From: an uncultured Eubacteriales bacterium
GTDB taxonomy: Bacteria > Bacillota_A > Clostridia > Oscillospirales > Oscillospiraceae
Direction: 5' to 3'
Assembly: GCA_900319835.1 (NCBI GenBank)
Contig: ONPY01000019.1
Coordinates: 1-28,437 of the forward strand
DNA length: 28,437 bases
The notes under the pieces were generated by a model. The model was given only the letters and a program-made list of their open reading frames with translations. It did not search any database and was not told the origin of the DNA. Made by a program: the position numbers and the translations under genes. Positions 1 through 20,680 of this stretch are shown here, in pieces (position 1 is the stretch's first letter; each line of letters begins with the position of its first letter).

Positions 1-28
1 CAATCCCCAATCCCCAATCCCCAATCCC
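1..28. repeat. Telomere-like AATCCCC tandem repeat at contig end
   Basis: Three perfect AATCCCC units followed by AATCCC fill positions 2-28, preceded by one C. The top strand is C-rich at the extreme left end, which is the orientation expected of a left chromosome end. C4A2- and C4A4-type repeats are known at ciliate macronuclear telomeres; a CCCCAAT variant in rumen ciliates is my inference. A simple low-complexity repeat is the alternative. Confidence 0.55.
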
Positions 29-106
29 GAAATGTTCTATTATTTATTTATTAGCAAAAGATTAGATTAATATATATTAAAATTATTTATTTATTAAAAT
101 ATAAAA
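29..106. other. AT-rich leader between telomere-like repeat and first gene
   Basis: This stretch is almost entirely A and T with no bacterial ribosome binding site in front of the ATG at 107; the bases before the start are A/T only. It fits a short eukaryotic 5' leader of a compact gene-sized chromosome or an anaerobic-fungus intergenic region rather than a clostridial leader. Confidence 0.5.
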
Positions 107-988
107 ATGAAAAGCATATATCTTCTCTTACTTTTGATTTTAAATGTGAATTTTTCTTTTTCAAAAAATCTTAGAACCTTAGCAGAATGTCAAGATTTCA
201 CATTTTTAGCAACAGAAGAAAATGTCAAAATCATAGGAAGAACTTACAACCATGAAGACGAAACTTGGATTGTTCATGGAGGAGCTGCAGTTGAATTTTA
301 TGCTGTTGGAAACACAGTAGAACTATTTTTAGTTGGTGATGATAGTGTCTATGAACAACCTGATTTCCGTCCAAGATATGCCATCTATGTGGACGATAAA
401 ATGGTCATCGATACAACTATGAGTAATTTAGAATTTACTGTTCAATTTAAAATATCAAATGATGAAAATGCAAAATCAAAAATTAAAGTAATGATGTTAT
501 CAGAAGCTCAAAACGGTGGAATAGGAATAAAGGCAATAAAAATCAATTCTTGTCAAGACAACAGAAAAATTTGGCCTGTAAAAAAAAAAAAATATAGCAT
601 AGAATTTATTGGTGATTCAATTACAAATGCCTATGGAGTCGATGCACCAGATCAATCCCATCCATTTAAAACCACCACAGAAAATTTCAGTAAATCCTAT
701 GCTTATTTAGCTTCTGAAATATTAGATGCTGATTATAGCTCTGTCTCTTATAGTGGTCATGGTATTGTCTCTGGTTATTCAGGTGGAGATAAATGGGCAG
801 ATGGTCTTGTACCCCTTTATTATGAAAAAATTAGTAAAAATACTAAATATCCAGGAGATTGGGACTTTGAAAATCATAGATATGATGTTGTTTTAATTAA
901 CCTTGGAACTAATGATGCCAATTATGTTAATGCTGATAGAGAAAAAAGAAAAGATGAATTTGTCCAAGAGTATGTTAACTTTTTGAAA
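107..988 (+). pseudogene. Truncated secreted CE2/SGNH-type carbohydrate esterase (eukaryote-like)
   Basis: Residues 1-19 form a signal peptide (MKSIYLL, Leu-rich core, FSFSK). Residues ~28-155 look like the beta-sandwich domain of CE2 acetyl esterases, which remove acetyl groups from plant polysaccharides such as xylan. The SGNH hydrolase part follows, with the nucleophile motif GDSIT (Ser171) and the GTND block (267-270). The last SGNH block, which supplies the catalytic Asp/His, is absent because the reading frame passes into bacterial sequence after EYVNFLK (968-988). Composition is strongly AT-rich with A-runs (13 A at 580-592) and AT-ending codons, unlike everything downstream. The source is probably a rumen ciliate or anaerobic fungus. 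As written, the product should lack esterase activity. The family call rests on motif recognition only. Confidence 0.65.
968..988. other. Junction between eukaryote-like and bacterial sequence
   Basis: The codons for EYVNFLK fit both the CE2/SGNH family upstream and the C-terminal helix of VanY/VanXY-type peptidases downstream, so the join probably lies within this short shared stretch. Base composition changes here from AT-rich to mid GC. The frame stays open across the join. Confidence 0.6.
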
Positions 989-1150
989 GGCTATTCGTTG
1001 GAGTGTCCTTTGGTTGCTCATGGCAGCGAAATATACTACGTCCCCGCCAGTGGGGAAATGATTGAGATCCACTTGCCGGAAAAAGCGGCATATCAGATTT
1101 CCGGCAATAACATAGACGGCTTTTTCGTGACTATTGGGAGGAAAAGCTGA
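968..1150 (+). pseudogene. C-terminal fragment of VanY/VanXY-type D,D-peptidase
   Basis: The last ~55 codons, containing EIYYVPASG and YQISGNNIDGFFVTI, resemble the C-terminal extension of M15-family D-Ala-D-Ala carboxypeptidases/dipeptidases found in vanG-type clusters. These zinc enzymes remove D-Ala-ending precursors so that D-Ser-ending cell-wall precursors dominate. The zinc-binding core (His, Asp, His) is missing, so the fragment cannot be active. The stop TGA at 1148-1150 shares its A with the ATG of the following vanT, and GGGAGG at 1136-1141 serves the downstream start. In vanG-type operons a peptidase gene normally sits directly before vanT, which supports the call. Confidence 0.5.
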
Positions 1151-3291
1151 TGAACGATCACAAGTATTATGCTGGAATTGACTGGATGCGTCTGATTGCC
1201 GCCATTTTAGTTATTGCGATCCATACATCGCCGCTTGCCAGTTATAACGCAACGGGAGATTTTATTCTGACAAGGGTTATTGCTCGTGTTGCTGTCCCGT
1301 TCTTTTTTATGACAACAGGCTACTTCACATTGTCAAGGTATCACTATGATAATAAAAAGTTATTTGCCTTTTTGAAAAAGACCAGCATAATTTATGCAGC
1401 AGCGATTGTAGTATATCTTCCATTGAATATTTATAATGGTTATTTTAATCAGCATAGCTTGCTGCCTAATATACTGAAAGACCTTGTATTTGATGGAACG
1501 CTGTATCACTTGTGGTATCTCCCTGCTTCTATGCTCGGTATGCTGATTGCTTGGCATCTTGTTCAAAAGTTTGACTATTCAAAAGGCTTGATCGTGGCAG
1601 GGCTACTGTATCTGGTAGGGCTATTTGGTGACAGCTATTACGGCATTACGGAAAAGCTGCCGATCATTAAGAACATATATGATTTGCTGTTTGAGCTTTT
1701 CGATTATACTCGAAACGGCATTTTCTTTTCCCCCGTTTTTCTTATGCTCGGCGGCTTGATTGCTGAAAAAAAGCACCGTATGACGAAAACACAGGCAATC
1801 TCTGGTCTGGTTGGCAGCTTTTTGTTATTGCTTGCGGAAGCCATGTTACTTCATAAGAACGGATTTCAGCGTCACGACAGTATGTATGTGTTTCTTCTGC
1901 CGTGTATGGTATTCCTTTTCCATTTTGTGCTGCATTTCAAAGGGAAAAAAGTACGTGGACTGAGGATTGCTTCTCTGCTGATTTATTTGATCCACCCGAT
2001 GATGATTGTTGTGGTGCGAGCTGCCGCAAAAATAACACATCTTCAAAATATTTTGGTAGATAACAGCTTGGGGCACTTTGCGGCGGTCTTTGCAGCATCT
2101 CTATTGTTTAGCTGTGCAGCAACCGTATTGGTGGAACGAGTTGTGGGAAAACAGCATCACCGTACAGAAATGGAACGTGCCTACATCGAACTTAATCTTG
2201 CGCATCTATCTCATAATGCCGAAGTTTTGCAGGATGCTATGCCACGGGGTTGTGAGTTGATGGCAGTTGTAAAAACGGAGGCCTATGGTCACGGTGCTTA
2301 TGCAGTCTCCACCCATCTTGAAAAGAACGGCGTAAAAGCATTTGCTGTTGCAACGATAGACGAAGGAATCCATCTGCGTCACTATGGGATTCGGGGAGAT
2401 ATTTTGATCCTTGGATTTACTGACGTGCATCGTGCCAAAGAACTAAAGAAGTTTCGTTTGACACAAACGCTGATTGACACCGACTATGCTGAATGTTTGA
2501 ATCGTCAAGGAATTCCGATCTGCGTACATATCGGAATCGACAGCGGAATGCACCGCCTTGGCTTTGATGTCCATGATTATGAAAATATACGACGGGTTTT
2601 CGATATGAAAAATCTGAACGTCGATGGGATATTTACACATCTCTGCTGCTGTGAAAGTTTGGAACCAGAAGACGTTGCTTTTACAAAAGGACAGGTTTAC
2701 AGCTTCTATGCTTTGATTGACTACCTGAAAGCGCACAAAATACATATCCCAAAGCTGCATATTCAAAGCAGCTACGGCTTGTTGAATTATCCTGAACTGC
2801 AATGTGATTATGTGCGAGAAGGCATCTCTCTGTATGGTGTTGCCTGTACGCCGCAGGATAAAACGACTTTGCAGCTTGATCTTCGTCCGGTTCTTGCGTT
2901 AAAAGCAAAGGTTGTTTTGATAAGGGATGTCCCGAAAGGTGATTTTGTCGGTTATGATCGAGTATATCAGACCCGGCGGGACAGCCGAATTGCAATCTTG
3001 CCGATTGGCTATGGCGATGGATTTCCGAGAAATTTGTCCTGTGGAAAAACAAGCGTAAAGATCGGCACATATATCGTGCCGATTGTCGGACGGATTTGTA
3101 TGGATCAGCTTGCCGTTGATATCACCGATACGGAGGGAATCTCCGTTGGCGATACGGCAACATTGATCGATAACGGGAAAGACAGCTTCTACACGACACC
3201 TTATGTGGCAGAGCAGTCCGATACCATTAGCAATGAACTGTTAAGCCGTATGGGCGCAAGACTACCAGTTGTTATTATAGAGGATTGTTAA
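1150..3291 (+). CDS. vanT: VanT-type membrane-bound serine/alanine racemase
   Basis: The 713-residue length matches VanT racemases, which fuse an integral-membrane domain to an alanine-racemase domain. Residues ~1-330 are an acyltransferase-3-like membrane domain with about ten hydrophobic segments, thought to take up L-serine. Residues ~340-713 are a PLP-dependent racemase: AVVKTEAYGHG carries the PLP lysine (Lys375), GYGDGFPR and VGRICMDQLAVD are the usual downstream motifs, and VGYDRVY lies near the catalytic tyrosine region. The enzyme makes D-Ser for D-Ala-D-Ser precursors, giving vanG-type low-level vancomycin resistance. It follows a D,D-peptidase tail with one-base overlap; the ligase, the rest of the peptidase and the regulators are not in the window. 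An ordinary fused Alr is less likely given this context. Confidence 0.88.
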   Translation: MNDHKYYAGIDWMRLIAAILVIAIHTSPLASYNATGDFILTRVIARVAVPFFFMTTGYFTLSRYHYDNKKLFAFLKKTSIIYAAAIVVYLPLNIYNGYFNQHSLLPNILKDLVFDGTLYHLWYLPASMLGMLIAWHLVQKFDYSKGLIVAGLLYLVGLFGDSYYGITEKLPIIKNIYDLLFELFDYTRNGIFFSPVFLMLGGLIAEKKHRMTKTQAISGLVGSFLLLLAEAMLLHKNGFQRHDSMYVFLLPCMVFLFHFVLHFKGKKVRGLRIASLLIYLIHPMMIVVVRAAAKITHLQNILVDNSLGHFAAVFAASLLFSCAATVLVERVVGKQHHRTEMERAYIELNLAHLSHNAEVLQDAMPRGCELMAVVKTEAYGHGAYAVSTHLEKNGVKAFAVATIDEGIHLRHYGIRGDILILGFTDVHRAKELKKFRLTQTLIDTDYAECLNRQGIPICVHIGIDSGMHRLGFDVHDYENIRRVFDMKNLNVDGIFTHLCCCESLEPEDVAFTKGQVYSFYALIDYLKAHKIHIPKLHIQSSYGLLNYPELQCDYVREGISLYGVACTPQDKTTLQLDLRPVLALKAKVVLIRDVPKGDFVGYDRVYQTRRDSRIAILPIGYGDGFPRNLSCGKTSVKIGTYIVPIVGRICMDQLAVDITDTEGISVGDTATLIDNGKDSFYTTPYVAEQSDTISNELLSRMGARLPVVIIEDC

Positions 3292-3325
3292 AACAAACGC
3301 AGCATTAGTCAATTCCATCTGCCGG

Positions 3326-3353
3326 ACGACGGCAAAAGAAAAAAAGCCGTCGT
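3326..3353 (+). other. Short hairpin after vanT
   Basis: An 8-bp perfect stem (ACGACGGC at 3326-3333 with GCCGTCGT at 3346-3353) encloses an A-rich 12-base loop. It precedes the stronger hairpin at 3381-3412 and may be part of a vanT transcript end. Confidence 0.35.
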
Positions 3354-3380
3354 ACAGCAGCCATTTGACACGCCCATTTG

Positions 3381-3412
3381 AAACGGCGGCTTTGATTTCA
3401 GAGCCGCCGTTT
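3381..3412 (+). terminator. Hairpin terminator of vanT operon
   Basis: A perfect 11-bp GC-rich stem (3381-3391 with 3402-3412) with a 10-base loop follows vanT by 90 bases. The downstream tail is only moderately T-rich, so it may act partly as an RNA-stabilising hairpin. Confidence 0.5.
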
Positions 3413-3565
3413 CTTTGCGTTTACACAAACCAATGACGACTTGCAGGGACACGGCAACCGATGGGAGGTTATTTTGTCGTGTCTACTTTACTATTCTATT
3501 TCTCCTGTGATCTGCACCAGTCAAAAAAAGCTCGTACCCGCCATCGGGGTATTCCGGGCATTGGT

Positions 3566-3586
3566 ATGAACACAGGAATCATGTAA
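3566..3586 (+). CDS. Possible six-residue leader peptide MNTGIM
   Basis: ATG AAC ACA GGA ATC ATG TAA ends 21 bases before a strong intrinsic terminator (3608-3641). Such tiny ORFs before an attenuator are known in regulatory leaders of resistance transposons. The ribosome binding site is weak, so this is a suggestion only. Confidence 0.25.
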   Translation: MNTGIM

Positions 3587-3607
3587 ATAGATTTTATAAT
3601 TCTTCTG

Positions 3608-3641
3608 CGTCTGTCTGCGTTTTGCAGACAGGCGCTTTTTG
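3608..3641 (+). terminator. Strong intrinsic terminator, possible attenuator
   Basis: A 12-bp stem (3608-3619 with 3625-3636, one G-T pair) with a five-base loop is followed by TTTTT at 3637-3641. It lies between vanT and the element's regulatory genes, downstream of a tiny ORF, so it could control read-through into the sigma-like gene. Confidence 0.6.
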
Positions 3642-3782
3642 TCGTTTTCTTGGGTTCTGTGTCGGCTGCAGATCCCCTCCTGCTTCTATCCCTCACAGAG
3701 CAACGATGAAACAGGAGGTGCAGCGCATGGATTCTTCCTAAAGAATTTTTCCAAAAAATTTTCTGCGTGTTTGCCAAAACGC

Positions 3783-3857
3783 ATGGTGCAGACCGTAGTA
3801 GTGGCGAAAGGGGAAGAAAACCGTATCACCCGCCTTTGCGGACGCGAAGGGAGGTGA
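3783..3857 (+). CDS. Possible 24-residue upstream peptide
   Basis: A short ORF (starts MVQTVVVAKG, ends CGREGR) stops at TGA 3855-3857, inside the GGGAGGTGA ribosome binding region of the next gene. The position would suit translational coupling to the sigma-like gene. No family is recognised and there is no clear Shine-Dalgarno of its own. Confidence 0.25.
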   Translation: MVQTVVVAKGEENRITRLCGREGR

Positions 3858-3861
3858 ATAC

Positions 3862-4284
3862 ATGAAGCCTCATTCGCACGAAGAACATATCCAGCACTCC
3901 TTTGATGCGTTCTGCAAAAAGGTACTGCGGAACGAAGCGCGGGACTATCAGGACGCGCTGGCACGGAAAAGGAACCGAGAGGTCTATTTTTCTGAGTTGC
4001 CCGTCGAAGTGCTGGAACAGTTCGCTGTCCGTGACACCTATTTCACGGATAGCCGCACATTTGAAGTCATCGGCCATTCGGTTTGTATCGACGATGAAAC
4101 GCTGGCAGAAGCGATCTCAGCTTTGCCTGTTGACCGCAGAGATATTATCCTGCTGTCCTACTTCCTCGATATGTCCGACGCTGAAATTGCAAATGTGCTG
4201 AATATGGTGCGCCGTTCCGTTGCCTATCGCAGGACAAGCACCCTAAAGCTGCTGAAAAACCTGATGGGAGGAAAAAACAGATGA
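3862..4284 (+). CDS. Sigma-70-like regulatory protein of integrative element
   Basis: This 140-residue protein has a C-terminal sigma region 4-like helix-turn-helix (residues ~85-135: LPVDRRDIILLSYFLDMSD, then AEIANVLNM) and an unassigned N-terminal half without a recognisable sigma region 2. Proteins of this type are common regulators in Tn916/Tn1549-like clostridial elements and usually precede the recombination genes. The start is supported by GGGAGGTG at 3849-3856. Its stop overlaps the ATG of the next gene (ATGA at 4281-4284), so the two are translationally coupled. It more likely controls element genes than acts as a housekeeping sigma factor. Confidence 0.8.
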   Translation: MKPHSHEEHIQHSFDAFCKKVLRNEARDYQDALARKRNREVYFSELPVEVLEQFAVRDTYFTDSRTFEVIGHSVCIDDETLAEAISALPVDRRDIILLSYFLDMSDAEIANVLNMVRRSVAYRRTSTLKLLKNLMGGKNR

Positions 4285-4520
4285 CAAGTCAATCGAAGGA
4301 TAACCGTCTGTTGCCGCTGACCGTCATTGAAGCGGCTGCTGGCGGTGACGTGGAAGCGATCAACGCCGTTCTGAAACACTATGCAGGGTACATAGCCCGT
4401 CTGTCGATGCGTGAGCTTTACGACGAGTACGGAAATCCCCATCTCTGCGTGGATGAAGAACTGCGGCGTAGGCTGGAAACGAAACTCATTACCAAGCTGC
4501 TCACATTCCGCGTGAGATAA
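4281..4520 (+). CDS. Small helix-turn-helix protein of integrative element
   Basis: This 79-residue protein resembles the small HTH proteins that follow the sigma-like gene in Tn916/Tn1549-type elements. Features seen are VIEAAAGGDVEAINAVLKHYAGYIARLS and a C-terminal ELRRRLETKLITKLLTF. The DVEAINAVLKHY and LETKL segments correspond to those found in this family's usual products. It starts within the stop of the preceding gene, with GGGAGG upstream. It probably regulates excision or transfer; the target is unknown. Confidence 0.7.
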   Translation: MTSQSKDNRLLPLTVIEAAAGGDVEAINAVLKHYAGYIARLSMRELYDEYGNPHLCVDEELRRRLETKLITKLLTFRVR

Positions 4521-4925
4521 CTGACGCCTGACAGAAACGTGTTCCCCCTTTCCTCGTTTCTGTCCCATGCTCCTTGACAAATATGCCCGCAAGAGAACGG
4601 CGGCGCATCATAGGCAAAACGGGTACGTTCCTTTTGCGTCGAGCTGGGCGGCTGGTACGCCATGACGTATATCCGAGAGGATATGCCGAGCGACAAATAC
4701 CGAGCCGTAACGCAAGTGTGGCAACTTGCAGGCGATGACGCGCAAAACACATAATGATACGACCTTACAGCCACAGTCCGAGCGTTCAAAGCGTCGCAGG
4801 CGATGGGTAGGGCTGCACGAGAACCGTGCGGGGGTGAAATTCCCTTGGAGCTGCGCCAGCAGCCGTCCGTTTTGTCATTCCCTTTTGTAGTTATTTCGTT
4901 TCCCATGAAAGGGGGATTTGTTTCT
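4521..4925 (+). other. 405-base gap with a 30-codon ORF and hairpins, no clear gene
   Basis: No complete gene is convincing here. One short ORF, 4662-4754 (MTYIREDMPS... ending GDDAQNT), lies in a frame that is open back to 4614 (preceded by VELGGWYA) and looks like a remnant of a larger element protein. Between 4810 and 4850 there are small hairpins, for example GCACG/CGTGC around AGAAC, and GGG/CCC. In related elements this position can hold transfer or excisionase genes, so a deletion scar is possible. Confidence 0.35.
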
Positions 4926-5111
4926 ATGGAAACAACCATGAAGAAAACAACGTCCCCGATTGTACGCGAGTACAAGATCGGGGATATAACGTATATCGTC
5001 AAGGCCGTCGTCAAAGACGGCGCGAAAGAGGACGCCGTGACAAAGGTGCGCCGCCTGATTCAGAATGACTTGCGGGGTAAAAAAGTTACAAATAATTTTG
5101 AACCCGCCTAA
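4926..5111 (+). CDS. tnpW: TnpW-like transposon-encoded small protein
   Basis: A 61-residue protein with EYKIGDITYIVKAVVKDGAK, then DAVTKVRRLIQND, matches the pattern of TnpW-family proteins: a short beta-hairpin 'IG-TY-V' followed by a charged helix ending in LIQND. TnpW proteins are carried by Tn4451-like and Tn1549-like elements; their role is unknown. I chose ATG 4926 because AAAGGGGG lies just upstream; an internal ATG at 4938 is possible. A promoter for the next genes overlaps its stop codon. Confidence 0.7.
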   Translation: METTMKKTTSPIVREYKIGDITYIVKAVVKDGAKEDAVTKVRRLIQNDLRGKKVTNNFEPA

Positions 5112-5139
5112 TGACGGCGAGCGAGATCCCTAGTATAAT
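5111..5139 (+). promoter_or_regulatory. Promoter of the recombinase genes
   Basis: ATGACG (5111-5116) and a consensus TATAAT (5134-5139) are 17 bases apart, 42 bases before the resolvase-like gene. The -35 box overlaps the tnpW stop codon. Confidence 0.55.
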
Positions 5140-5180
5140 ATAAATAACCTGTTTGTCCGGCTGCCGGAATAGGAGGCAAC

Positions 5181-5597
5181 ATGAAAAAGCAGCCCGACAA
5201 AATCACCGCATATTACTACCGTGCGGCGAACAAACAAACAGACCTGAACCTTGACAATCAAATGCACCTACTTTTGAGCCATGCACAGGAAAACGGAACG
5301 GACACCTATATGTTCTTCGTGGACAATGGGTACAACGGCCTGACCGCAGAGCGTCCGGCATTTCAAAATCTGCTTGCAGCAATCCATGAGAACCGCGTGC
5401 AGAAAATTGTTGTCGTATCGCTTGACCAACTTTACCGCAACCATCTTGCAGCGGTGCAGTTCCTTGATGATATGGAGCAGCGCGGTATTGCGATTTGCTC
5501 CATTACAGACGGCGATCTGCCCCTTTGCCGAGAACTGTATCACGGCATTGTCAATGCCTACCGCAGTTCTTCCGAGAAAGGCGGTGAGTGCAGATGA
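5181..5597 (+). CDS. Resolvase-fold protein lacking the catalytic serine
   Basis: This 138-residue protein aligns by eye to the N-terminal catalytic domain of serine recombinases: a first strand YYYRAANKQ, a mid region PAFQNLLAAI and KIVVVSLDQLYRN. In active enzymes the first motif reads Y-x-R-V-S; here the serine position is Ala16. The conserved Arg of the D-R-L-x-R motif is Gln83, with only Arg86 kept. No zinc ribbon or DNA-binding tail follows. It is therefore probably not a recombinase itself, but could pair with or regulate the large serine recombinase whose ATG overlaps its stop (ATGA at 5594-5597). AGGAGG precedes the start. Confidence 0.75.
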   Translation: MKKQPDKITAYYYRAANKQTDLNLDNQMHLLLSHAQENGTDTYMFFVDNGYNGLTAERPAFQNLLAAIHENRVQKIVVVSLDQLYRNHLAAVQFLDDMEQRGIAICSITDGDLPLCRELYHGIVNAYRSSSEKGGECR

Positions 5598-7354
5598 CGG
5601 GATTTACCTTTCAGAGCTTGAAGCCGCAGGACAGTTTAAGCAATGAGCTTCGCAGCGTGATCCGCGATAATGTTTTGCAGTTCTACGCCAAGGGGCTATC
5701 TGCGGAAGCGGAGGAAGAAGGTCTGACCGCTCTGTATGAGCGCCTTTCGCAGGAAGATAAGCTGGATGGTGAAAGTAACTCCATAGCAAACCAGAAGAAG
5801 ATTCTGGAACGCTACTGCAAGGATCACGGGATTACCGCCTACCGCCATTATGACGAGGATGACGGTTATTCCGGCACAAACTTCAACCGTCCGGGCTTCC
5901 AGCGTATGCTTGCCGACATCAAGGCAGGACGGATCAAGCGCGTCATCGTAAAGGACATGAGCCGCTTTGGGCGCGATTATCTCCAAGTGGGAATGTATAC
6001 CGATGTTGTTTTCCCGGAGTTTGGCGTTCATTTCATTGCCGTCAATGACGGCGTGGACAGCACACGCGGCGAAAGTGAGTTTACCGCGATCCGCAATGTG
6101 TTCAACGAAATGTATGCCCGCGATACCTCTAAGAAGATTCGCGCTACATGGCAGAGTAAAGGCAAGTCCGGCGAGCATTTGACGACCATTCCGCCCTATG
6201 GGTATATGAAAAGCCCGGAGGACAAAAAGAAATGGATCGTCGATGAAGAAGCCGCAGCCGTCGTACAGAAGATATTCTCCCTGTGCGCGTCTGGCAAGGG
6301 ACCCACGCAGATTGCTAAATGGCTCAAACAGCAGCAAATCTTGAACCCAACTGCCTATTGCCATGCGAAAGGTCTGCCGACCAGCAACAAGCCGACAGCA
6401 GACCCGTACAAATGGACAAATGAAACGGTTTCCCGCATTTTGGAGCGCGTAGACTATCTGGGGCATACAGTAAACTTCAAGACCACAAAGAAGTCCTACA
6501 AGAGCAAGAAGAAAATCTGGAATGACCCTGAGAATTGGGTGATCTTCGAGAACACCCAGCCACCGATCATCGAGGAAAGCGTGTTCCTGATTGTTCAGAA
6601 CATTCGCAAGGCGCGTCGCCGTCCTACCAAGATGGGTGAAATGGGTATGTTCTCCGGGCTTCTGTATTGCGCAGAGTGCGGCGGCAAAATGTATCAATGC
6701 CGCGCTACCAACTTTGCAGAGAACCAGAAATACTTCATCTGCTCCACCTACCGCAAGGGCAAGGATCTCTGCACGACCCATTCTATCAAGAATGTTGTGC
6801 TGCATGAAATTGTTCTGCGAAATCTGCGGGAAGCAATCTCCTATGTTTCAGAACATGAAGCGGAGTTCATTCAGGACGCAGCCGAGAGCGATATGCGGGA
6901 CAGAGATGCAGAGTTTGTTCGGAAGCGTGAAACGCTGGCAAAGGCGGACACGCGAATTGCCGAGCTTGACCGCATTATCTCCCGACTGTATGAGGACAAC
7001 GTGATTGGCAAGCTGTCAGATGAACGGTTTATCAAAATGTCCCATGACTACGAGTTGGAACAAAGCAACCTGAAATCAATGGCAGAAGTCCTGCGCAAGG
7101 ATCTGAAGCAGCAGGAGCAGCAGAAAACCAATGTCAAGGCGTTTATCGCTGCCGTGAAGAAGTACACGGATTTGCAGGAGCTTGACGCGGCTGTTCTCCG
7201 TGCTTTCATTGACAGGATCGAAGTTTCCCATGTTGACAAGAAATCCAGAACGAGGGAAATCACCATCGTCTATAACTTCATCGGTGCATTTGACTTCACA
7301 CGGGCAATCGAAAATGCCCGCAACACAAGTAAAAAAGAGCAAAGAACGGCATAG
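5594..7354 (+). CDS. Large serine recombinase (TnpX/TndX-like)
   Basis: This 586-residue enzyme cuts and rejoins DNA for excision and integration of the element. The resolvase domain (~residues 45-190) carries YERLSQED with catalytic Ser52, DGYSGTNFNRPGFQRML, KDMSRFGRDYLQVG and the E-helix region. The recombinase domain (~200-350) contains PPYGYMKS and the typical spaced tryptophans. The zinc ribbon begins at Cys359-x2-Cys362 with a second Cys pair near CSTYRKGKDLC. A coiled-coil-rich C-terminus and a VSHVDKKSRTREITIVYNF end follow, as in TnpX of Tn4451. I chose ATG 5594 for its overlap with the upstream stop; ATG 5588 is possible. An extra ~45 residues precede the resolvase core. Confidence 0.9.
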   Translation: MTGFTFQSLKPQDSLSNELRSVIRDNVLQFYAKGLSAEAEEEGLTALYERLSQEDKLDGESNSIANQKKILERYCKDHGITAYRHYDEDDGYSGTNFNRPGFQRMLADIKAGRIKRVIVKDMSRFGRDYLQVGMYTDVVFPEFGVHFIAVNDGVDSTRGESEFTAIRNVFNEMYARDTSKKIRATWQSKGKSGEHLTTIPPYGYMKSPEDKKKWIVDEEAAAVVQKIFSLCASGKGPTQIAKWLKQQQILNPTAYCHAKGLPTSNKPTADPYKWTNETVSRILERVDYLGHTVNFKTTKKSYKSKKKIWNDPENWVIFENTQPPIIEESVFLIVQNIRKARRRPTKMGEMGMFSGLLYCAECGGKMYQCRATNFAENQKYFICSTYRKGKDLCTTHSIKNVVLHEIVLRNLREAISYVSEHEAEFIQDAAESDMRDRDAEFVRKRETLAKADTRIAELDRIISRLYEDNVIGKLSDERFIKMSHDYELEQSNLKSMAEVLRKDLKQQEQQKTNVKAFIAAVKKYTDLQELDAAVLRAFIDRIEVSHVDKKSRTREITIVYNFIGAFDFTRAIENARNTSKKEQRTA

Positions 7355-7379
7355 CCATTAAGCTACACCGTTCCTTGCT
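7338..7379. repeat. Inverted repeat overlapping the recombinase stop codon
   Basis: AGCAAAGAACGG (7338-7349) pairs with CCGTTCCTTGCT (7368-7379), 11 of 12 positions, with an inner TAGC/GCTA pair. It spans the recombinase stop at 7352-7354 and lies at the expected element end, so it may be part of the right attachment region or a terminator. Confidence 0.4.
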
Positions 7380-7434
7380 TCAATGTTTTCCTAAGTCACC
7401 GCCCCATCAGCGCGGGGCTTTTTCATTTTTCCCA
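7380..7434. other. Probable right end of the integrative element
   Basis: Gene content and base composition change between the recombinase stop and the chromosomal promoter at 7435. The recombinase of TnpX-type elements normally lies next to one end. The exact attachment site cannot be set because the left end is not in the window. Confidence 0.4.
7401..7430 (+). terminator. Short intrinsic terminator at element end
   Basis: GCCCC (7401-7405) pairs with GGGGC (7414-7418) around an 8-base loop, followed by a T-rich tail interrupted by CA. It insulates the chromosomal regulator from element transcription. Confidence 0.5.
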
Positions 7435-7463
7435 TTGACGAGCGGAGAAAAATACGCTATACT
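7435..7463 (+). promoter_or_regulatory. Promoter of the DtxR/MntR-like gene
   Basis: TTGACG (7435-7440) and TATACT (7458-7463) are separated by 17 bases, close to the sigma-A consensus. Confidence 0.7.
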
Positions 7464-7464
7464 G

Positions 7465-7492
7465 GCATCAGTTAAAGATAGCTAACTGCTGC
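7465..7492. promoter_or_regulatory. Candidate autoregulatory operator
   Basis: GCATCAGTTA (7465-7474) and TAACTGCTGC (7483-7492) form an inverted repeat matching at 9 of 10 positions with an 8-base gap. It lies directly after the -10 box and before the ribosome binding site, where a repressor would block early transcription. Autoregulation by the encoded DtxR/MntR-like protein is inferred. Confidence 0.45.
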
Positions 7493-7507
7493 TTGGGAGG
7501 TGTTGTG

Positions 7508-8016: not shown

Positions 8017-8045
8017 TTGACAAAGAGTGAGAAATCTGCTATATT
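8017..8045 (+). promoter_or_regulatory. Promoter of the peroxidase-ohrR operon
   Basis: A perfect TTGACA (8017-8022) and TATATT (8040-8045) are spaced by 17 bases. This is one of the strongest promoters in the window, as expected for a gene held down by a repressor. Confidence 0.8.
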
Positions 8046-8055
8046 CAGTTTAGCA

Positions 8056-8078
8056 AAATTAATTGAACACAATTGATT
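8056..8078. promoter_or_regulatory. Candidate OhrR operator
   Basis: The AT-rich near-palindrome AATTAATTG-AACAC-AATTGATT lies between the -10 box and the ribosome binding site. OhrR/MarR sites are usually AT-rich inverted repeats with AATT cores, and an ohrR gene follows in the same operon. The assignment is by position and style only. Confidence 0.45.
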
Positions 8079-8091
8079 GGGAGGTACACTC

Positions 8092-8634
8092 ATGAACGTT
8101 TATGATTTCACCGTGACCGCGCAGGACGGCAGCCAGGTCAATCTCAAGGACTACGCCGGCAAGGTTCTGCTGATCGTCAACACCGCCACTGCCTGCGGCT
8201 TTACGCCTCAGTACGGCCCCATGCAGGAAATCTATGAGGAGTTCCACGACAAGGGACTTGAGATCCTGGACTTCCCCTGCAACCAGTTTGCCGATCAGGC
8301 GCCCGGCACCGACGAGGAGATCCACAGCTTCTGCCAGGGCCGCTTCGGCGTGACCTTCCCGCAGTTTTCCAAGATCGACGTCAACGGCGATAACGCCATC
8401 CCGCTCTATAAGTACCTGACCACCAACACCGCCTTTGAGGGCTTCGGCAAGGGCCCCATGGGTCTTGTGCTTGCACCCATCGTGAAGAAGATGGACAAGG
8501 ATTACAAGAATAACGGCAACATCAAGTGGAACTTCACCAAGTTCCTGATCGACCGCGAGGGCAACATCGTCGCCCGCTTCGAGCCCACTGCGGACATGAA
8601 GCTGGTCAAGGAAAAGATCGCAGAGCAGCTGTAA
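8092..8634 (+). CDS. Glutathione-peroxidase-family thiol peroxidase
   Basis: This 180-residue cytosolic protein has the full single-domain GPx fold: NTATACGFTPQY with peroxidatic Cys35 (Cys, not selenocysteine), FPCNQFADQAPG with catalytic Gln69, and IKWNFTKFLI with the catalytic Trp. Cys81 in HSFCQGRFGVTFP is the probable resolving cysteine, so it likely uses thioredoxin rather than glutathione to reduce peroxides, as is usual in clostridia. GGGAGG precedes ATG 8092. It is co-transcribed with the OhrR-type regulator downstream, which points to induction by organic peroxides. The family is certain; reductant and substrate are inferred. Confidence 0.93.
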   Translation: MNVYDFTVTAQDGSQVNLKDYAGKVLLIVNTATACGFTPQYGPMQEIYEEFHDKGLEILDFPCNQFADQAPGTDEEIHSFCQGRFGVTFPQFSKIDVNGDNAIPLYKYLTTNTAFEGFGKGPMGLVLAPIVKKMDKDYKNNGNIKWNFTKFLIDREGNIVARFEPTADMKLVKEKIAEQL

Positions 8635-8635
8635 G

Positions 8636-8659
8636 AAAGGAGCGCCGCGCTTCGCGGTG
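8636..8659 (+). promoter_or_regulatory. Shine-Dalgarno followed by hairpin before ohrR
   Basis: AAAGGAG (8636-8642) is 26 bases before the ohrR ATG at 8669. The sequence CGCCGCG-CTT-CGCGGTG (8643-8659) between them can form a 7-bp hairpin that would bring the site to about 9 bases from the start. Confidence 0.5.
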
Positions 8660-8668
8660 TGATGTGTG

Positions 8669-9127
8669 ATGAACAGGAAAAGCACAGACAACAGAGCCTA
8701 TGACACATTGCTGCTGGACAGACAGCTCTGCTTCCCGCTGTATGCCTGTGCGCGGGAGGTCGTCAAGCGCTATACGCCGTATCTGGAGGAGATCGGGCTG
8801 ACCTATACCCAGTACATCACGATGCTGGTGCTGTGGGAGACGCCATGCATGACCTCCAAGCAGATCGGTAAACGCCTGAGGCTTGATTCCGGAACCCTGA
8901 CGCCGGTGCTGAAAAAGCTGGAGCAGCGCGGCCTGATCCTCCGCAGACGGGACGAGGCCGACGAGCGCAACCTGCTGGTGGAGCTCACCGAAGACGGAAA
9001 GAACCTGCGGGAGCGCGCGGTGAAAATCCCGCAGCGGCTGGGCGCCTGTCTGAATCTGACGCCGGAGGATGCGGTGCAGCTCTACACCCTTTTGCACCGG
9101 ATGCTGGACGGTCTGGAAAACACATAA
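8669..9127 (+). CDS. ohrR: OhrR-type MarR-family peroxide-sensing repressor
   Basis: This 152-residue protein matches OhrR closely: LLDRQLCFPLYACAREV with reactive Cys21, Tyr35 and Tyr46 at the positions of the tyrosines that contact this cysteine in B. subtilis OhrR, LDSGTLTPVLKKLEQRGLI as recognition helix and RRRDEADERNLLVELT as the wing. A second cysteine, Cys127, lies where 2-Cys OhrR proteins have their partner cysteine, so oxidation may form a disulfide between subunits. It probably represses its own operon through the AT-rich palindrome near 8056-8078 and releases DNA when organic peroxides oxidise Cys21. ATG 8669 is preferred over GTG 8666. Confidence 0.9.
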   Translation: MNRKSTDNRAYDTLLLDRQLCFPLYACAREVVKRYTPYLEEIGLTYTQYITMLVLWETPCMTSKQIGKRLRLDSGTLTPVLKKLEQRGLILRRRDEADERNLLVELTEDGKNLRERAVKIPQRLGACLNLTPEDAVQLYTLLHRMLDGLENT

Positions 9128-9128
9128 G

Positions 9129-9174
9129 AGAAACGGTACAGACGGAGGAGACTCCGGCTGTGCCGTTTCTTTTG
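9129..9174 (+). terminator. Intrinsic terminator after ohrR
   Basis: AGAAACGGTACAG (9129-9141) pairs with CTGTGCCGTTTCT (9158-9170) with one G-T pair, with an inner CGGAG/CTCCG stem, followed by T-rich sequence. Confidence 0.85.
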
Positions 9175-9192
9175 GAAAATAACAGAAACGGC

Positions 9193-9221
9193 TTGTTTTT
9201 AGTCGGGGATTCCCGTATAAT
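9193..9221 (+). promoter_or_regulatory. Promoter of the VanW-domain gene
   Basis: TTGTTT (9193-9198) and consensus TATAAT (9216-9221) are 17 bases apart. Confidence 0.65.
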
Positions 9222-9235
9222 AAACCAATACGGGA
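9211..9235. promoter_or_regulatory. Inverted repeat over the -10 box
   Basis: TCCCGTAT (9211-9218) and ATACGGGA (9228-9235) form a perfect 8-bp inverted repeat with a 9-base gap. The left arm includes the start of the -10 box, a classic repressor position. The binding protein is unknown. Confidence 0.45.
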
Positions 9236-9247
9236 AGGAGGGACACT

Positions 9248-10846
9248 ATGAAAAAAGTCTTAACCGTATTCCTTGTACTGTTGATTTTTCTTGTGATTCT
9301 CGGGGGCTGTGCCCTGTATCTGGGCTACTACGTCACCAATGGGAACACCAATGTCCGCTATGTCTATGTGGGGGACACCAATGTCAGCGGCCTGACGCGG
9401 GATGAGACGGAAAACCTGCTGATCGAGCGCGGATGGAAGTCCCGGGCGGAGACGCCGCTGGTGGTGACCACCTACCGCGACGTGAGCTTTGAGGTGGAGC
9501 CGCTGCGCGCCGGCACTGCCGTCACGGTCGATTCGCTGGTGGACGCGGCCTTTGCCTACGGGCACAACGATGAGATGATCACCAACCTCATCACGGCCGT
9601 GAAAACGCTGCTGAACCCCGTGGATGTCAGCAAACGGGAGGCTACGGTCGACACCGTCTATCTGGATGCGCTGATCGACGCCTGTGAGCAGCGCGTCAAC
9701 GAAAGCCTTGCGGACGAGGAATACACCGTGGACGCCCACGCCGGAGAAATGACTCTGGTCAAAGGCTGGCAGGGACTGCACTTTGACCGCGCGGATTTCC
9801 GCGCTGCCATTTTAACTGCACTGGAATCCGGCGCTACGGAACTGCATTACACCAAGCTGGCCGAGGAACCGGCGGCTCCGGACTTTGAGGCCATCCACCG
9901 CGAACTGGAGCGCGAGCCCGCGGACGCCTACTATACCGACGACGGCACCTTCAACGTGGTGGATGAAATCGTCGGCTGCAAGTTTGACGTGGCCGAAGCC
10001 CAGAGACTTTGGGACGTCGCGGCCCCGGGCGAGAAGGTGACGGTCCCGCTGGACATCGTCTGGCCCGAGGTGACCGGCGAACAGCTGCGCGGGCAGCTCT
10101 ATCACGATCTGCTGGGCGCGTGCCTGACCAAGTTCCCCAACTCCGCGGAGAACCGCCGCAGCAACCTTAACCTCTGCGCCGAACGCATCAACGGTTTCAT
10201 CCTCTATCCGGGCGAGACCTTCTCCTATAACGAGGTGGTGGGCGAGCGCACCGAGGAAGCCGGCTTTCTGCCGGCGCCGGCCTACGTCAACGGTGACGTG
10301 AAGGATGAGATTGGCGGCGGCGCCTGTCAGGTGTCCAGCACCCTCTATGCCGCGACGGCCTTTGCCTTCCTGGAGACGGTGGACCGCTCCTGCCATGTCT
10401 TCCCGGTCAACTACATGCAGATGGGAACCGACGCCACCGTCACCATCCCCGCCGAGGGTAAATCCATCGACTTCAAGTTCCGCAACAACAAGAATTTTCC
10501 CATCAAGATCGTGACGGATTTCAACGATGAGGAGCGCACCATCTCTGTGGAAATCTGGGGCACCCTGGAAGACGACGATTACATGCCCGTGGAGTTTGAC
10601 AATACCTACGGCTGGACCTACGACTACGACCGCTTTATCGATCCGGCCTACCCGGACAGAGAGGGTTATACCATCAAGTTCCTGGTGGACATCTACAACG
10701 GCACGGAGGAAGACGGACGCTTCTTCTACCGCACGATTACCCACCGCCAGGTGATCGACCAGGAGGGGAATATCGTGGAGGACACGATCCTCAATCCCGG
10801 CGAGCCCGGCAAGTATGCCATGGACACCTACTACGAGCATCCCTGA
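9248..10846 (+). CDS. VanW-domain membrane-anchored cell-envelope protein
   Basis: This 532-residue protein has an N-terminal membrane anchor (residues ~4-29) and an extracellular part. Residues ~40-280 resemble the peptidoglycan-binding-4 (YoaR) type repeats. Residues ~295-430 are the VanW domain, with LYPGETFSYNEVVGERTEEAG and EIGGGACQVSSTLYAA, and a beta-rich tail follows. VanW-domain proteins are widespread in clostridia; a general role in the cell envelope is assumed but their biochemistry is unresolved. Despite the name, this chromosomal gene is not evidence of vancomycin resistance. AAGGAGG precedes ATG 9248. A dUTPase-like gene follows after 31 bases and may share the transcript. Confidence 0.88.
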   Translation: MKKVLTVFLVLLIFLVILGGCALYLGYYVTNGNTNVRYVYVGDTNVSGLTRDETENLLIERGWKSRAETPLVVTTYRDVSFEVEPLRAGTAVTVDSLVDAAFAYGHNDEMITNLITAVKTLLNPVDVSKREATVDTVYLDALIDACEQRVNESLADEEYTVDAHAGEMTLVKGWQGLHFDRADFRAAILTALESGATELHYTKLAEEPAAPDFEAIHRELEREPADAYYTDDGTFNVVDEIVGCKFDVAEAQRLWDVAAPGEKVTVPLDIVWPEVTGEQLRGQLYHDLLGACLTKFPNSAENRRSNLNLCAERINGFILYPGETFSYNEVVGERTEEAGFLPAPAYVNGDVKDEIGGGACQVSSTLYAATAFAFLETVDRSCHVFPVNYMQMGTDATVTIPAEGKSIDFKFRNNKNFPIKIVTDFNDEERTISVEIWGTLEDDDYMPVEFDNTYGWTYDYDRFIDPAYPDREGYTIKFLVDIYNGTEEDGRFFYRTITHRQVIDQEGNIVEDTILNPGEPGKYAMDTYYEHP

Positions 10847-10877
10847 CGAAAACGAAAAAGCAAAAGAGGAGCCGACT

Positions 10878-11366
10878 ATGAACCGTATTTCCTTTGCCAA
10901 AATCCGCGAGGGCGCCGTTATCCCCTCCAAGCGGGACGAGGATTCCGACTACGACCTCTATGCCTGCTTCGACGAGGACGAGTTTGTCATCCCCGCCTTT
11001 TCCACCCGCCTGATCCCCACGGGACTGATCAGCGCCTTTGACAAGTCCCTGGGCGTCAAGTTTGAGGAGCGCGGCAGCAACACCAAATGGTGCGGGATTG
11101 TGCAGGCCGGGGTCATCGACAGCGGCTACCGCGGCGAATGGGTCTGTGCCATGTATAACGGCAACCCGGTCCCGGTCCACATCACAAAGGCGGTGGAGGA
11201 GGTACAGCGGATGGAAGACCGGGTTCTGGTGCCCTATGCCAAGGCCATCTGCCAGTTCCATGTGCGGCAGATCCCGGAGACGGAAATCTGCGAGACCACG
11301 GCGGAGGAGATCTACGCGCAGAGCTCTGAGCGCGGGGCGGGGAAGCTCGGCAGCAGCGGCAAGTAA
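10878..11366 (+). CDS. dUTPase-family protein
   Basis: This 162-residue protein carries the trimeric dUTPase motifs: DSDYDLYA (residues 23-29, motif 1), ERGSNTKWCGI (motif 2 region, varied from RSS/RSG), GVIDSGYRGE with catalytic Asp81 and stacking Tyr84 (motif 3), and a C-terminal SSERGAGKLGSSGK like the flexible motif 5 (RGxGGFGS). The family hydrolyses dUTP to dUMP and keeps uracil out of DNA; some members act on dCTP. The start at 10878 follows AGAGGAG. Motif 2 is atypical, so substrate may differ. A terminator follows directly. Confidence 0.8.
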   Translation: MNRISFAKIREGAVIPSKRDEDSDYDLYACFDEDEFVIPAFSTRLIPTGLISAFDKSLGVKFEERGSNTKWCGIVQAGVIDSGYRGEWVCAMYNGNPVPVHITKAVEEVQRMEDRVLVPYAKAICQFHVRQIPETEICETTAEEIYAQSSERGAGKLGSSGK

Positions 11367-18618: not shown

Positions 18619-19338
18619 ATGAAAACCATAATCTGTGAAAACAGCCAGTTGGCTGAAAAAGCGGCGGATTTTATCATCCGCGTTTTGAAGGATAAGCCCG
18701 AAGCTGTGCTGGCGCTGGCCTGTGGCCAGACCATGAAGCCGGTCTGGGCACAGCTTGCCGACGCGTATGCGAAGGGCGCTGTGAATTTTGAAAAAGCCCG
18801 CGTGCTCTGTGTGACGGAACTGATCGGCGTCAGAGAGGAGCAAAGCTGCCGCTATGCACTGGAAAACGAACTTTTGAGGCGTGTGAACATCCGATCAGAT
18901 CACTGCTTCTTTCCAAACCCGGATGCGCCGGAGGACTACGACCGGCTGATCGAAAGCCTGGGCGGCATTGATCTTGCGGTGCTCGGCATCGGGGAGAACT
19001 GCCACGTCGGCTACAATGAGCCCGGCACGCTTTTTGATTCCATGACCCATGTCCAGAAGCTGACCGATCGCACCAAGCGGCAGCTCCTCAAGCGCGGCTT
19101 TGTCGAGGCGGACATGCCCCAAAAAGCCGTGACGATGGGCATCAAAAATCTGACAGACGCCGGGGAGATCCTGGTGATCGCCGCCGGCGACAAGGCGGGC
19201 GCCGTATATCAGATGGTCTACGCCAAGACCACACCGTACATTCCCGCCGCGTATCTGCAAATCCCGCTTGAGGTGACCGTATTGCTTGACACCGAGGCCG
19301 CCAGAGAGCTTGAAACAGGAGGTATAAAAAATGGGTAA
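18619..19338 (+). CDS. NagB-like sugar-phosphate isomerase/deaminase with changed active site
   Basis: This 239-residue protein has the NagB/6-phosphogluconolactonase fold: LALACGQTMKPVW (phosphate loop, usually LxTGSTP), VTELIGVREEQSCRYAL (usually DEYxGL...SY) and GIGENCHVGYNEPG (usually GIGxDGHIAFNEPG). Glucosamine-6-phosphate deaminase uses Asp72, Asp141, His143 and Glu148. By motif alignment the first Asp is Thr and the second is Asn here, while His and Glu remain. It may therefore act on another sugar phosphate or serve as a binding protein. It overlaps glmM by 8 bases, placing it in amino-sugar metabolism. AAAGGG lies 5 bases before the start. Confidence 0.8.
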   Translation: MKTIICENSQLAEKAADFIIRVLKDKPEAVLALACGQTMKPVWAQLADAYAKGAVNFEKARVLCVTELIGVREEQSCRYALENELLRRVNIRSDHCFFPNPDAPEDYDRLIESLGGIDLAVLGIGENCHVGYNEPGTLFDSMTHVQKLTDRTKRQLLKRGFVEADMPQKAVTMGIKNLTDAGEILVIAAGDKAGAVYQMVYAKTTPYIPAAYLQIPLEVTVLLDTEAARELETGGIKNG

Positions 19339-20680
19339 GTATTTTGGAACAGACGGTTTCCGCGGAGAAGCCAACGTCGACCTGACCGTTGACCACGCCT
19401 TCCGCATCGGCCGCTGGCTCGGCTGGTATTATGGCAAAGAGCACAAAGCCCAGGTCGTCATCGGCAAGGATACCCGGCGCTCCAGCTATATGTTTGAGGA
19501 CGCCCTCTGCGCGGGCCTGACCGCCTCCGGCGCGGACGCCTATCTGCTGCACGTCACCTCGACGCCCAGCGTGTCCTTTATCGCGAGAGCCGACGATTTT
19601 GACTGTGGCATCATGATCTCCGCCAGCCACAATCCCTTCCACGACAACGGCATCAAGCTGCTCAACGGCAACGGCGAGAAGATGGAGGAGTCCGTTCTGG
19701 ATGAGCTGGAGGCTTTTCTCGACTCCAACGAGCAGCTGCCCTACGCCCACCGGGACGCCATCGGCTGCACGGTGGACTACGCCGCCGGCCGCAACCGCTA
19801 CATCGGCTATCTGATCTCTCTGGCTACCCGCTCCTACAAGGGCTTCCGCATCGGTCTGGACTGCGCCAACGGCAGCACCTGGCAAATGGCCAAGAGCGTC
19901 TTTGACGCCCTGGGCGCCGACACCTATGTGATCGCCAACAAGCCAGACGGTCTGAACATCAACGTCGACTGCGGCTCCACCCACCTGAACAACCTGAAAC
20001 AGTTTGTCGTGGAGAACAAGCTCGACGTGGGCTTTGCCTTTGACGGCGACGCCGACCGCTGCCTGGCCGTGGACGAGAAGGGCAACGAGGTCAACGGCGA
20101 CCACATCATGTACATCTGCGCCAAATACATGCTCGACCGCGGCACCCTGGGCGACTCCAAGGTCGTCACCACGGTCATGAGCAACATGGGTCTGTACAAG
20201 GCCCTCGACGCCATCGGCGTGGGCTACGAGAAGACCGCCGTGGGCGACAAATACGTGGCGGAAAATATGCGCCAGAACGGCCATGTGATCGGCGGCGAGC
20301 AGTCCGGCCACATCATCTTCGGACGCCTGGCCAACACCGGCGACGGCCTGCTGACCGCCATCAAGGTCATGGAGGCCATCACCGAGACCAAGGAGCCGCT
20401 CTCCGTCCTGGCAGCGCCGATGACCATGTACCCCCAGGTGCTGAAAAACGTCATCGTGACCGACAAGGATGAGACTCTGGCCTGTCCCGAGGTCCAGGCC
20501 GCCGTGAAGAAAGCAGAGGCGGAGCTGGGCGATAACGGCCGCGTGCTCCTGCGCAAGAGCGGCACGGAGCCGCTGCTGCGCGTGATGAGCGAGGCCACCA
20601 CCTATGAGCTCTGCGAGGAGAAGGTGGACGCCATCATCGCCGCCATGAAGGACGCCGGAAAGCTGATTCGCATCAAGTAA
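19331..20680 (+). CDS. glmM: Phosphoglucosamine mutase-like phosphohexomutase
   Basis: This 449-residue protein contains all four phosphohexomutase motifs: GTDGFRGEAN at the start, ISASHNPFHDNGIK with phosphoserine Ser99, FDGDADR with metal ligands Asp238, Asp240 and Asp242, GGEQSGHII for sugar binding and RKSGTEPLLRVM for phosphate. GlmM converts glucosamine-6-phosphate to glucosamine-1-phosphate for UDP-GlcNAc and cell wall. It overlaps the NagB-like gene and is followed by a GlmU-like acyltransferase, so a hexosamine route is likely. Confidence 0.93.
   Translation: MGKYFGTDGFRGEANVDLTVDHAFRIGRWLGWYYGKEHKAQVVIGKDTRRSSYMFEDALCAGLTASGADAYLLHVTSTPSVSFIARADDFDCGIMISASHNPFHDNGIKLLNGNGEKMEESVLDELEAFLDSNEQLPYAHRDAIGCTVDYAAGRNRYIGYLISLATRSYKGFRIGLDCANGSTWQMAKSVFDALGADTYVIANKPDGLNINVDCGSTHLNNLKQFVVENKLDVGFAFDGDADRCLAVDEKGNEVNGDHIMYICAKYMLDRGTLGDSKVVTTVMSNMGLYKALDAIGVGYEKTAVGDKYVAENMRQNGHVIGGEQSGHIIFGRLANTGDGLLTAIKVMEAITETKEPLSVLAAPMTMYPQVLKNVIVTDKDETLACPEVQAAVKKAEAELGDNGRVLLRKSGTEPLLRVMSEATTYELCEEKVDAIIAAMKDAGKLIRIK

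Follow-up and report, generated by a model that had tools for sequence, protein, structure and literature searches.

The window, i.e. the whole stretch of DNA that was analysed (28,437 nucleotides of contig ONPY01000019.1, assembly GCA_900319835.1), carries near its left end an open reading frame of 347 amino acids (positions 107–1150, forward strand) which is free of stop codons throughout and which begins as a CE2 esterase and ends as the C-terminal tail of a VanXY protein. The frame and its surroundings comprise the following features.

1–28, forward strand: four perfect, in-register copies of CCCCAAT, a ciliate-type telomere at the left end of the contig (tandem repeat, period 7, 4.0 copies, 100 % matches).
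29–106, forward strand: AT-rich subtelomeric leader (1–106 at 21.7 % GC).
107–967, forward strand: 5′ portion of a CE2 esterase gene, ciliate-like, with an N-terminal hydrophobic leader, truncated ahead of the C-terminal catalytic block (AxeC2 and GDSL/CE2_N matches).
968–988, forward strand: the join, coding for the peptide EYVNFLK common to CE2 and VanXY relatives (longest peptide common to the proteins P0001 and P0121 described below; composition change-point).
989–1150, forward strand: C-terminal vanXY tail, bacterial, without the VanY domain (together with 968–988, 58 of 60 residues identical with P0121; NCBIfam vanXY_G).
1150–3291, forward strand: gene for a vanT-type membrane serine/alanine racemase, the downstream partner of vanXY (NCBIfam vanT-CELN, 664.5 bits; vanT-G-Cterm, 529.3 bits, above its cut-off of 460).
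3862–7354, forward strand: transposon-type genes, namely sigma-70 region 4, HTH_16, TnpW and two resolvase-family recombinases (Pfam; blastn).

The first-pass annotation had described an esterase frame continuing without a stop into a VanY/VanXY-type C-terminus, and this description was borne out, CE2 matches being followed by a VanXY tail within the same frame. The NCBIfam profile AxeC2 (CE2) matched residues 38–294 with 60.6 bits and the profile VanXY-G matched residues 286–346 with its positions 186–251 of 254 at 44 bits; both scores are far below the whole-protein cut-offs (500 in each case), as is expected for partial proteins. In Pfam, Lipase_GDSL (28.3 bits) exceeded its cut-off, Lipase_GDSL_2 (30 bits) and CE2_N (25.7 bits) were slightly below theirs, and the tail (989–1150) taken alone gave no match. 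A PDB search with the whole frame matched CE2 enzymes and residues 186–252 of VanXY-G (4f78).

The GDS and GTND blocks, which we take to have a role in CE2 esterases, are present in the frame, IEFIGDSIT and NLGTND being conserved in an alignment of its relatives (A1). The C-terminal D-[W/S]-H-P block, which 108 of the 120 CE2 relatives listed (of 3642 found) possess, is missing from the fusion. The VanY catalytic domain (PF02557), which occupies residues 44–171 of the VanXY protein P0121, is likewise missing according to Pfam, and the join corresponds to residue 187 of P0121, downstream of the end of that domain (171). Both halves had been said to lack their catalytic residues (SGNH Asp/His; zinc ligands); this agrees with the absence of the C-terminal CE2 block and of the VanY domain, the parts that would carry these residues. 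A run of A lies within the CE2 frame at 590–604, and the window differs from the nearest CE2 protein found, P0001, at residues 159 and 162; these differences near the A run could be real variation or sequence error.

When the whole frame was searched against about 5.8 billion proteins, 4776 candidates and from them 3642 relatives were obtained, of which 120 were listed. The top match among the matches listed was P0001, a full-length CE2 protein of 374 amino acids, with which the frame shares 290 of 294 amino acids over residues 1–294 (four differences) and then only 2 of 53. A second search with residues 284–347 alone gave seven candidates and three proteins, all with a VanY domain; the best of these, P0121, is a VanXY of 247 amino acids that is identical at 58 of 60 positions from E288 onwards and at 14 of the 186 preceding ones. 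Each half thus has a close full-length relative, and the P0001-like and P0121-like stretches overlap in exactly EYVNFLK (968–988 of the window). No second fusion was found among the 123 relatives fetched (the 120 listed of 3642 and the three tail matches) from the searched database, which is clustered at 90 % identity and in which a fusion could hide within a cluster.

EYVNFLK, seven amino acids, is the longest peptide common to P0001 and P0121, a length reached in none of 500 shuffles of P0121 (the longest common peptide was 6 in 2, 5 in 26, 4 in 293 and 3 in 179 of them). The join therefore sits where the two proteins agree, as expected if a shared stretch caused it. The peptide had been called natural to both families, and it is present in both P0001 and P0121, the nearest full-length relatives found. 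It occurs in 7 of the 120 listed CE2 relatives (of 3642 found). A match to the vanXY tail was found at 37 of the 70 vanT loci examined and starts at the same EY in 35 of these 37, none of those 35 tails having the exact EYVNFLK. The word YSLEC of the tail was found only in P0121 among the 123 proteins.

The composition of the DNA changes at the same place. GC content is 21.7 % over 1–106 and 31.1 % over 107–967 (17 % at third codon positions), and rises to 48 % in the vanXY tail, 43 % in vanT, 50 % over 3292–7354 and 59 % in the remainder. A two-model likelihood change-point, trained on 1–900 versus 1151–3291, fell at 988 with order 1 and at 978 with order 2. The gene on the left avoids certain codons (GAG 0 of 18, TTG 1 of 19); judged by its usage, the codons of 968–988 would arise with a probability of about 1.1e-4, against a value 40 times higher for the usage of vanT. 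Because codon use is so improbable for the left gene, the 21 bases look bacterial and the true overlap may fall short of 21 bases. Parents with the same residues as P0001 and P0121 could share no more than 23 bases of DNA there.

At the left end the C-rich strand of (CCCCAAT)n runs inward from the very end of the contig. Within the window the word CCCCAATCCCCAAT occurs at positions 5 and 12 only, and 100 shuffles did not produce it once. The same caps are reported for Entodinium caudatum (2018 draft, contigs up to 147 kb; PMC6211341), for which a table in PMC10978948 gives 21.5 % GC and 11,371 two-telomere contigs with a mean of 2,779 bp, and whose transcriptome includes one CE2 transcript (Table 1 of PMC6925433). 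Balantidium ctenopharyngodoni also has (CCCCAAT)n caps, on 22,334 contigs termed nanochromosomes (PMC10978948). In Muniziella cunhai, which uses the standard code and has about 26 % GC, (CCCCAAT)n is described as the "typical" telomere of Litostomatea, and complete chromosomes average about 28.6 kb with about six genes (PMC11316547). Since this ciliate has the same repeat on chromosomes of that size, gene-sized chromosomes cannot be deduced from the repeat by itself. None of the contigs that carry the 120 listed CE2 relatives (of 3642) is longer than 2150 bases, compared with 60,959 for the contig of the VanXY protein P0122. The stretch from base 1 to about 967 looks like the terminal part of a gene-sized macronuclear chromosome of a litostome-type gut ciliate, and the contig would stop at the physical end of that chromosome. 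This putative assignment draws on the telomere, the composition and the contig sizes jointly, and it gives a narrower place to the esterase half, which the first-pass annotation had called eukaryote-like. An origin from an anaerobic fungus, the first idea on account of AT richness and the CE2 family, was dropped on the strength of the telomere, when (CCCCAAT)4 was matched to ciliates. A search of 29–106 for the 15-bp AT periodicity that is reported for subtelomeres of E. caudatum did not find it (autocorrelation 0.00 at lag 15); these 78 bases are too short a stretch to weigh.

Right of the join the window is, judged by its sequence, bacterial and Oscillospirales-like, with a vanXY–vanT fragment, then transposon genes and then chromosome. 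By blastn, DNA similar to 3862–7354 was found in a record of Vescimonas fastidiosa whose annotation names genes of these types. The van fragment is probably part of a mobile element; the GC content of 3862–7354 lies between those of vanT and the chromosome, and the element would have a boundary near 7354–7493. Two stretches, approximately 3317–3455 and 4569–4870, are 78–89 % identical to many Enterococcus plasmids among the matches listed, with no annotated gene under the match. The chromosomal part (7355–28437, 59 % GC) is closest to genome G177 among 296 genomes searched. Three pieces, parts of 8040–11366, are collinear with contig C26 of G177 at 72–87 % DNA identity, and the phosphoglucomutase-like protein at 19331–20680 is 90 % identical to one on C26, the best match in the 296 genomes around an Oscillospiraceae metagenome-assembled genome.

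Parental DNA was sought on both sides of the join. For the CE2 parent, viral contigs scanned with P0001 gave 5 stretches and with alignment A1 100 stretches, of which none was confirmed; the exact 21 bases of 968–988 occurred in no viral contig, and blastn of 1–985 against plasmids gave no match. For the bacterial parent, vanT loci in genome contigs were at most 62 % identical over their full length and at most 64 % over the racemase part, the DNA of 989–5200 gave one match of 98 query bases in one of the five nearest genomes, P0121 had a best identity of 53 % in 99 genomes around G177, and all VanXY-side matches in 423 plasmid records were below 60 %.

The window is best explained as a chimeric contig that arose in metagenome assembly, with no gene fusion behind it (probability about 0.95). 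An assembly chimera at a short shared sequence had also been the preferred explanation of the first-pass annotation, and it gains support from the switch of parents at EYVNFLK, the change in composition, the telomere on the left and the lack of a second fusion among the relatives fetched. Bases 1 to about 967–988 would then be the start of a gut-ciliate macronuclear chromosome with a single gene, consisting of telomere, short AT-rich leader and CE2 gene, and the remainder would be a bacterial contig broken off within vanXY. Both genes would code for EYVNFLK, so that a short common word could link two assembly paths; the assembler would cross over there and extend leftward to the physical end of the ciliate chromosome. 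Such a path switch and extension would account for the contig stopping at the telomere, a feature left unexplained by insertion into a bacterial chromosome, and the second telomere would be absent as the path leaves the ciliate chromosome inside the gene. We infer that the joining took place in the computer and not in a molecule, and that the DNA common to the two parents (at most 23 bases if they carry the residues of P0001 and P0121) would suffice for a join at small k. By formula, 1 Gb of random sequence is expected to contain about 2.3e5 chance-shared 21-mers, 56 27-mers and 0.22 31-mers. Chimeric nodes in multispecies de Bruijn graphs (PMC8171044) and cross-genome contigs at low to intermediate coverage (PMC7881036) have been described.

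The joining could also have taken place in a DNA molecule: template switching at a short stretch common to ciliate and bacterial fragments would have united them while the library was prepared or amplified, and the assembler would have followed reads that were real although artificial. This is improbable, but it remains a rival because the overlap may be shorter than 21 bases, as the codon use suggests, and a ciliate project has reported chimeric contigs together with Nanopore reads with embedded telomeres, some of them checked by PCR (PMC10978948). A single molecule would, however, need depth enough for assembly, and a join located at the longest peptide common to P0001 and P0121 fits a word-overlap join well. 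That the fusion is an artefact of one of these two kinds, assembly chimera or chimeric library molecule, is close to certain.

Recombination in a cell, by which the end of a ciliate chromosome with its telomere would have been fused in frame to vanXY at the seven shared residues, either in a bacterium or in a linear hybrid molecule with a working eukaryotic telomere, is altogether very improbable. A bacterium that had captured the chromosome end would account for a frame that is open over 347 codons and for a join in register with both proteins; the contig nevertheless ends at the telomere with no bacterial DNA beyond it, the left part is still ciliate-like in composition with no amelioration, and no further example appeared among the 123 relatives (120 listed of 3642, and 3). 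Both halves also lack their C-terminal or catalytic part, and therefore nothing would favour keeping the fusion. The odds for such a capture are below one in a hundred. They are lower still for transfer in the opposite direction, in which the contig would be a ciliate chromosome with acquired bacterial DNA. Transfers from bacteria to rumen ciliates have been reported (PMC6925433) and the telomere does cap the contig, but the remaining 27 kb have 43–59 % GC, contain bacterial and transposon genes and include the pieces collinear with the bacterial genome G177 at 72–87 % DNA identity.

Other contigs with the CCCCAAT repeat were found in IMG/VR. A scan with 25 bases of the repeat gave eight contigs, three with AT-rich flanks (L083, L085 and L088) and five with GC-rich DNA on both sides; a scan with an 18-base repeat gave 25 stretches on 22 contigs, the same three having about 0.2 GC beside the repeat, and 19 of the other 22 stretches had 0.50–0.74 GC on both sides and three (L096, L098, L102) 0.32–0.40. 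The CCCCAAT repeat alone is not diagnostic of ciliate DNA.

One of the three AT-rich cases, L088 (IMGVR_UViG_3300021400_000885, 103,909 bases, of which 5226 were examined), is an independent contig with the layout of the window: a ciliate-type telomere, one gene and then phage. Its telomere lies at 56–83, after 55 low-complexity bases, and is followed by DNA of 17 % GC with one complete gene, the product of which is identical at 297 of 300 positions with P0124, a protein on a contig of 1159 bases. A run of 14 G lies at 1263, and from 1280 the DNA has 36 % GC and matches to a phage endolysin, a holin (weak) and a portal protein. The ciliate-type protein of L088 also has a weak match to phrog_1244 (PHROG, function unknown; E 8e-5, residues 10–79), which was set aside because none of the 82 listed full-length relatives lies on a contig longer than 4271 bases and 297 of 300 positions agree with P0124. 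L088 and the window are alike in having a CCCCAAT telomere near the end and a single AT-rich gene, followed in L088 by DNA of a prokaryotic virus. L088 departs from the window in its complete gene, in a join beside the run of 14 G, in the 55 bases ahead of the telomere and in having a phage as partner. With a complete gene and a join at a homopolymer, L088 may have had another cause than the window.

The remaining two contigs are of other kinds. L085 (IMGVR_UViG_3300010998_001116, 3253 bases) is capped by CCCCAAT telomeres on both sides and contains one frame of 928 amino acids at 228–3014, which on reading looks like a helicase; a whole nanochromosome of a ciliate has here apparently been filed under viruses. 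L083 (IMGVR_UViG_3300028833_000049, 2299 bases, AT-rich) has two CCCCAAT telomeres head to head at 474–569 and probably represents the erroneous joining of two chromosome ends.

Taken at face value, the window would indicate a cross-kingdom transfer involving a glycopeptide-resistance gene, a conclusion that should not be drawn; as an artefact, the fusion needs no function. A (CCCCAAT)n cap at the end of a contig together with adjoining AT-rich DNA is a warning sign of gut-ciliate DNA. In collections of gut metagenomes, contigs of this kind can give rise to spurious transfers, spurious fusion proteins and misfiled viruses, and at least one further public contig with the layout of the window, L088, is filed as a virus of 104 kb. 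In the titles and abstract openings of open-access papers, among the best matches, no report was found of rumen metagenomes in which prokaryotic contigs are joined to ciliate nanochromosomes. About 3 % of the contigs of the Balantidium project had embedded telomeres and are described there as chimeras or artefacts (PMC10978948), and the type of artefact is therefore already known for ciliates.

Compared with the chimeric contigs described for metagenomes (PMC8171044, PMC7881036), the window is probably alike in that two unrelated genomes would be joined at a short common stretch, and differs in that a eukaryotic chromosome end would be joined to a bacterium, with the frame kept by coincidence. 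With the gene-sized chromosomes reported for E. caudatum and B. ctenopharyngodoni it has in common the (CCCCAAT)n cap, the AT-rich leader, the single gene and the low GC content, but only the left end is present. The encoded protein resembles CE2 acetyl-xylan esterases (AxeC2; PDB 4xvh, 2wao, 2w9x) in the CE2_N and GDSL/SGNH N-terminal parts, whereas it does not have their C-terminal D-[W/S]-H-P block, and it resembles vanG-type VanXY (PDB 4f78) in the C-terminal tail and in the place of its gene directly before vanT, whereas it does not have the VanY domain.
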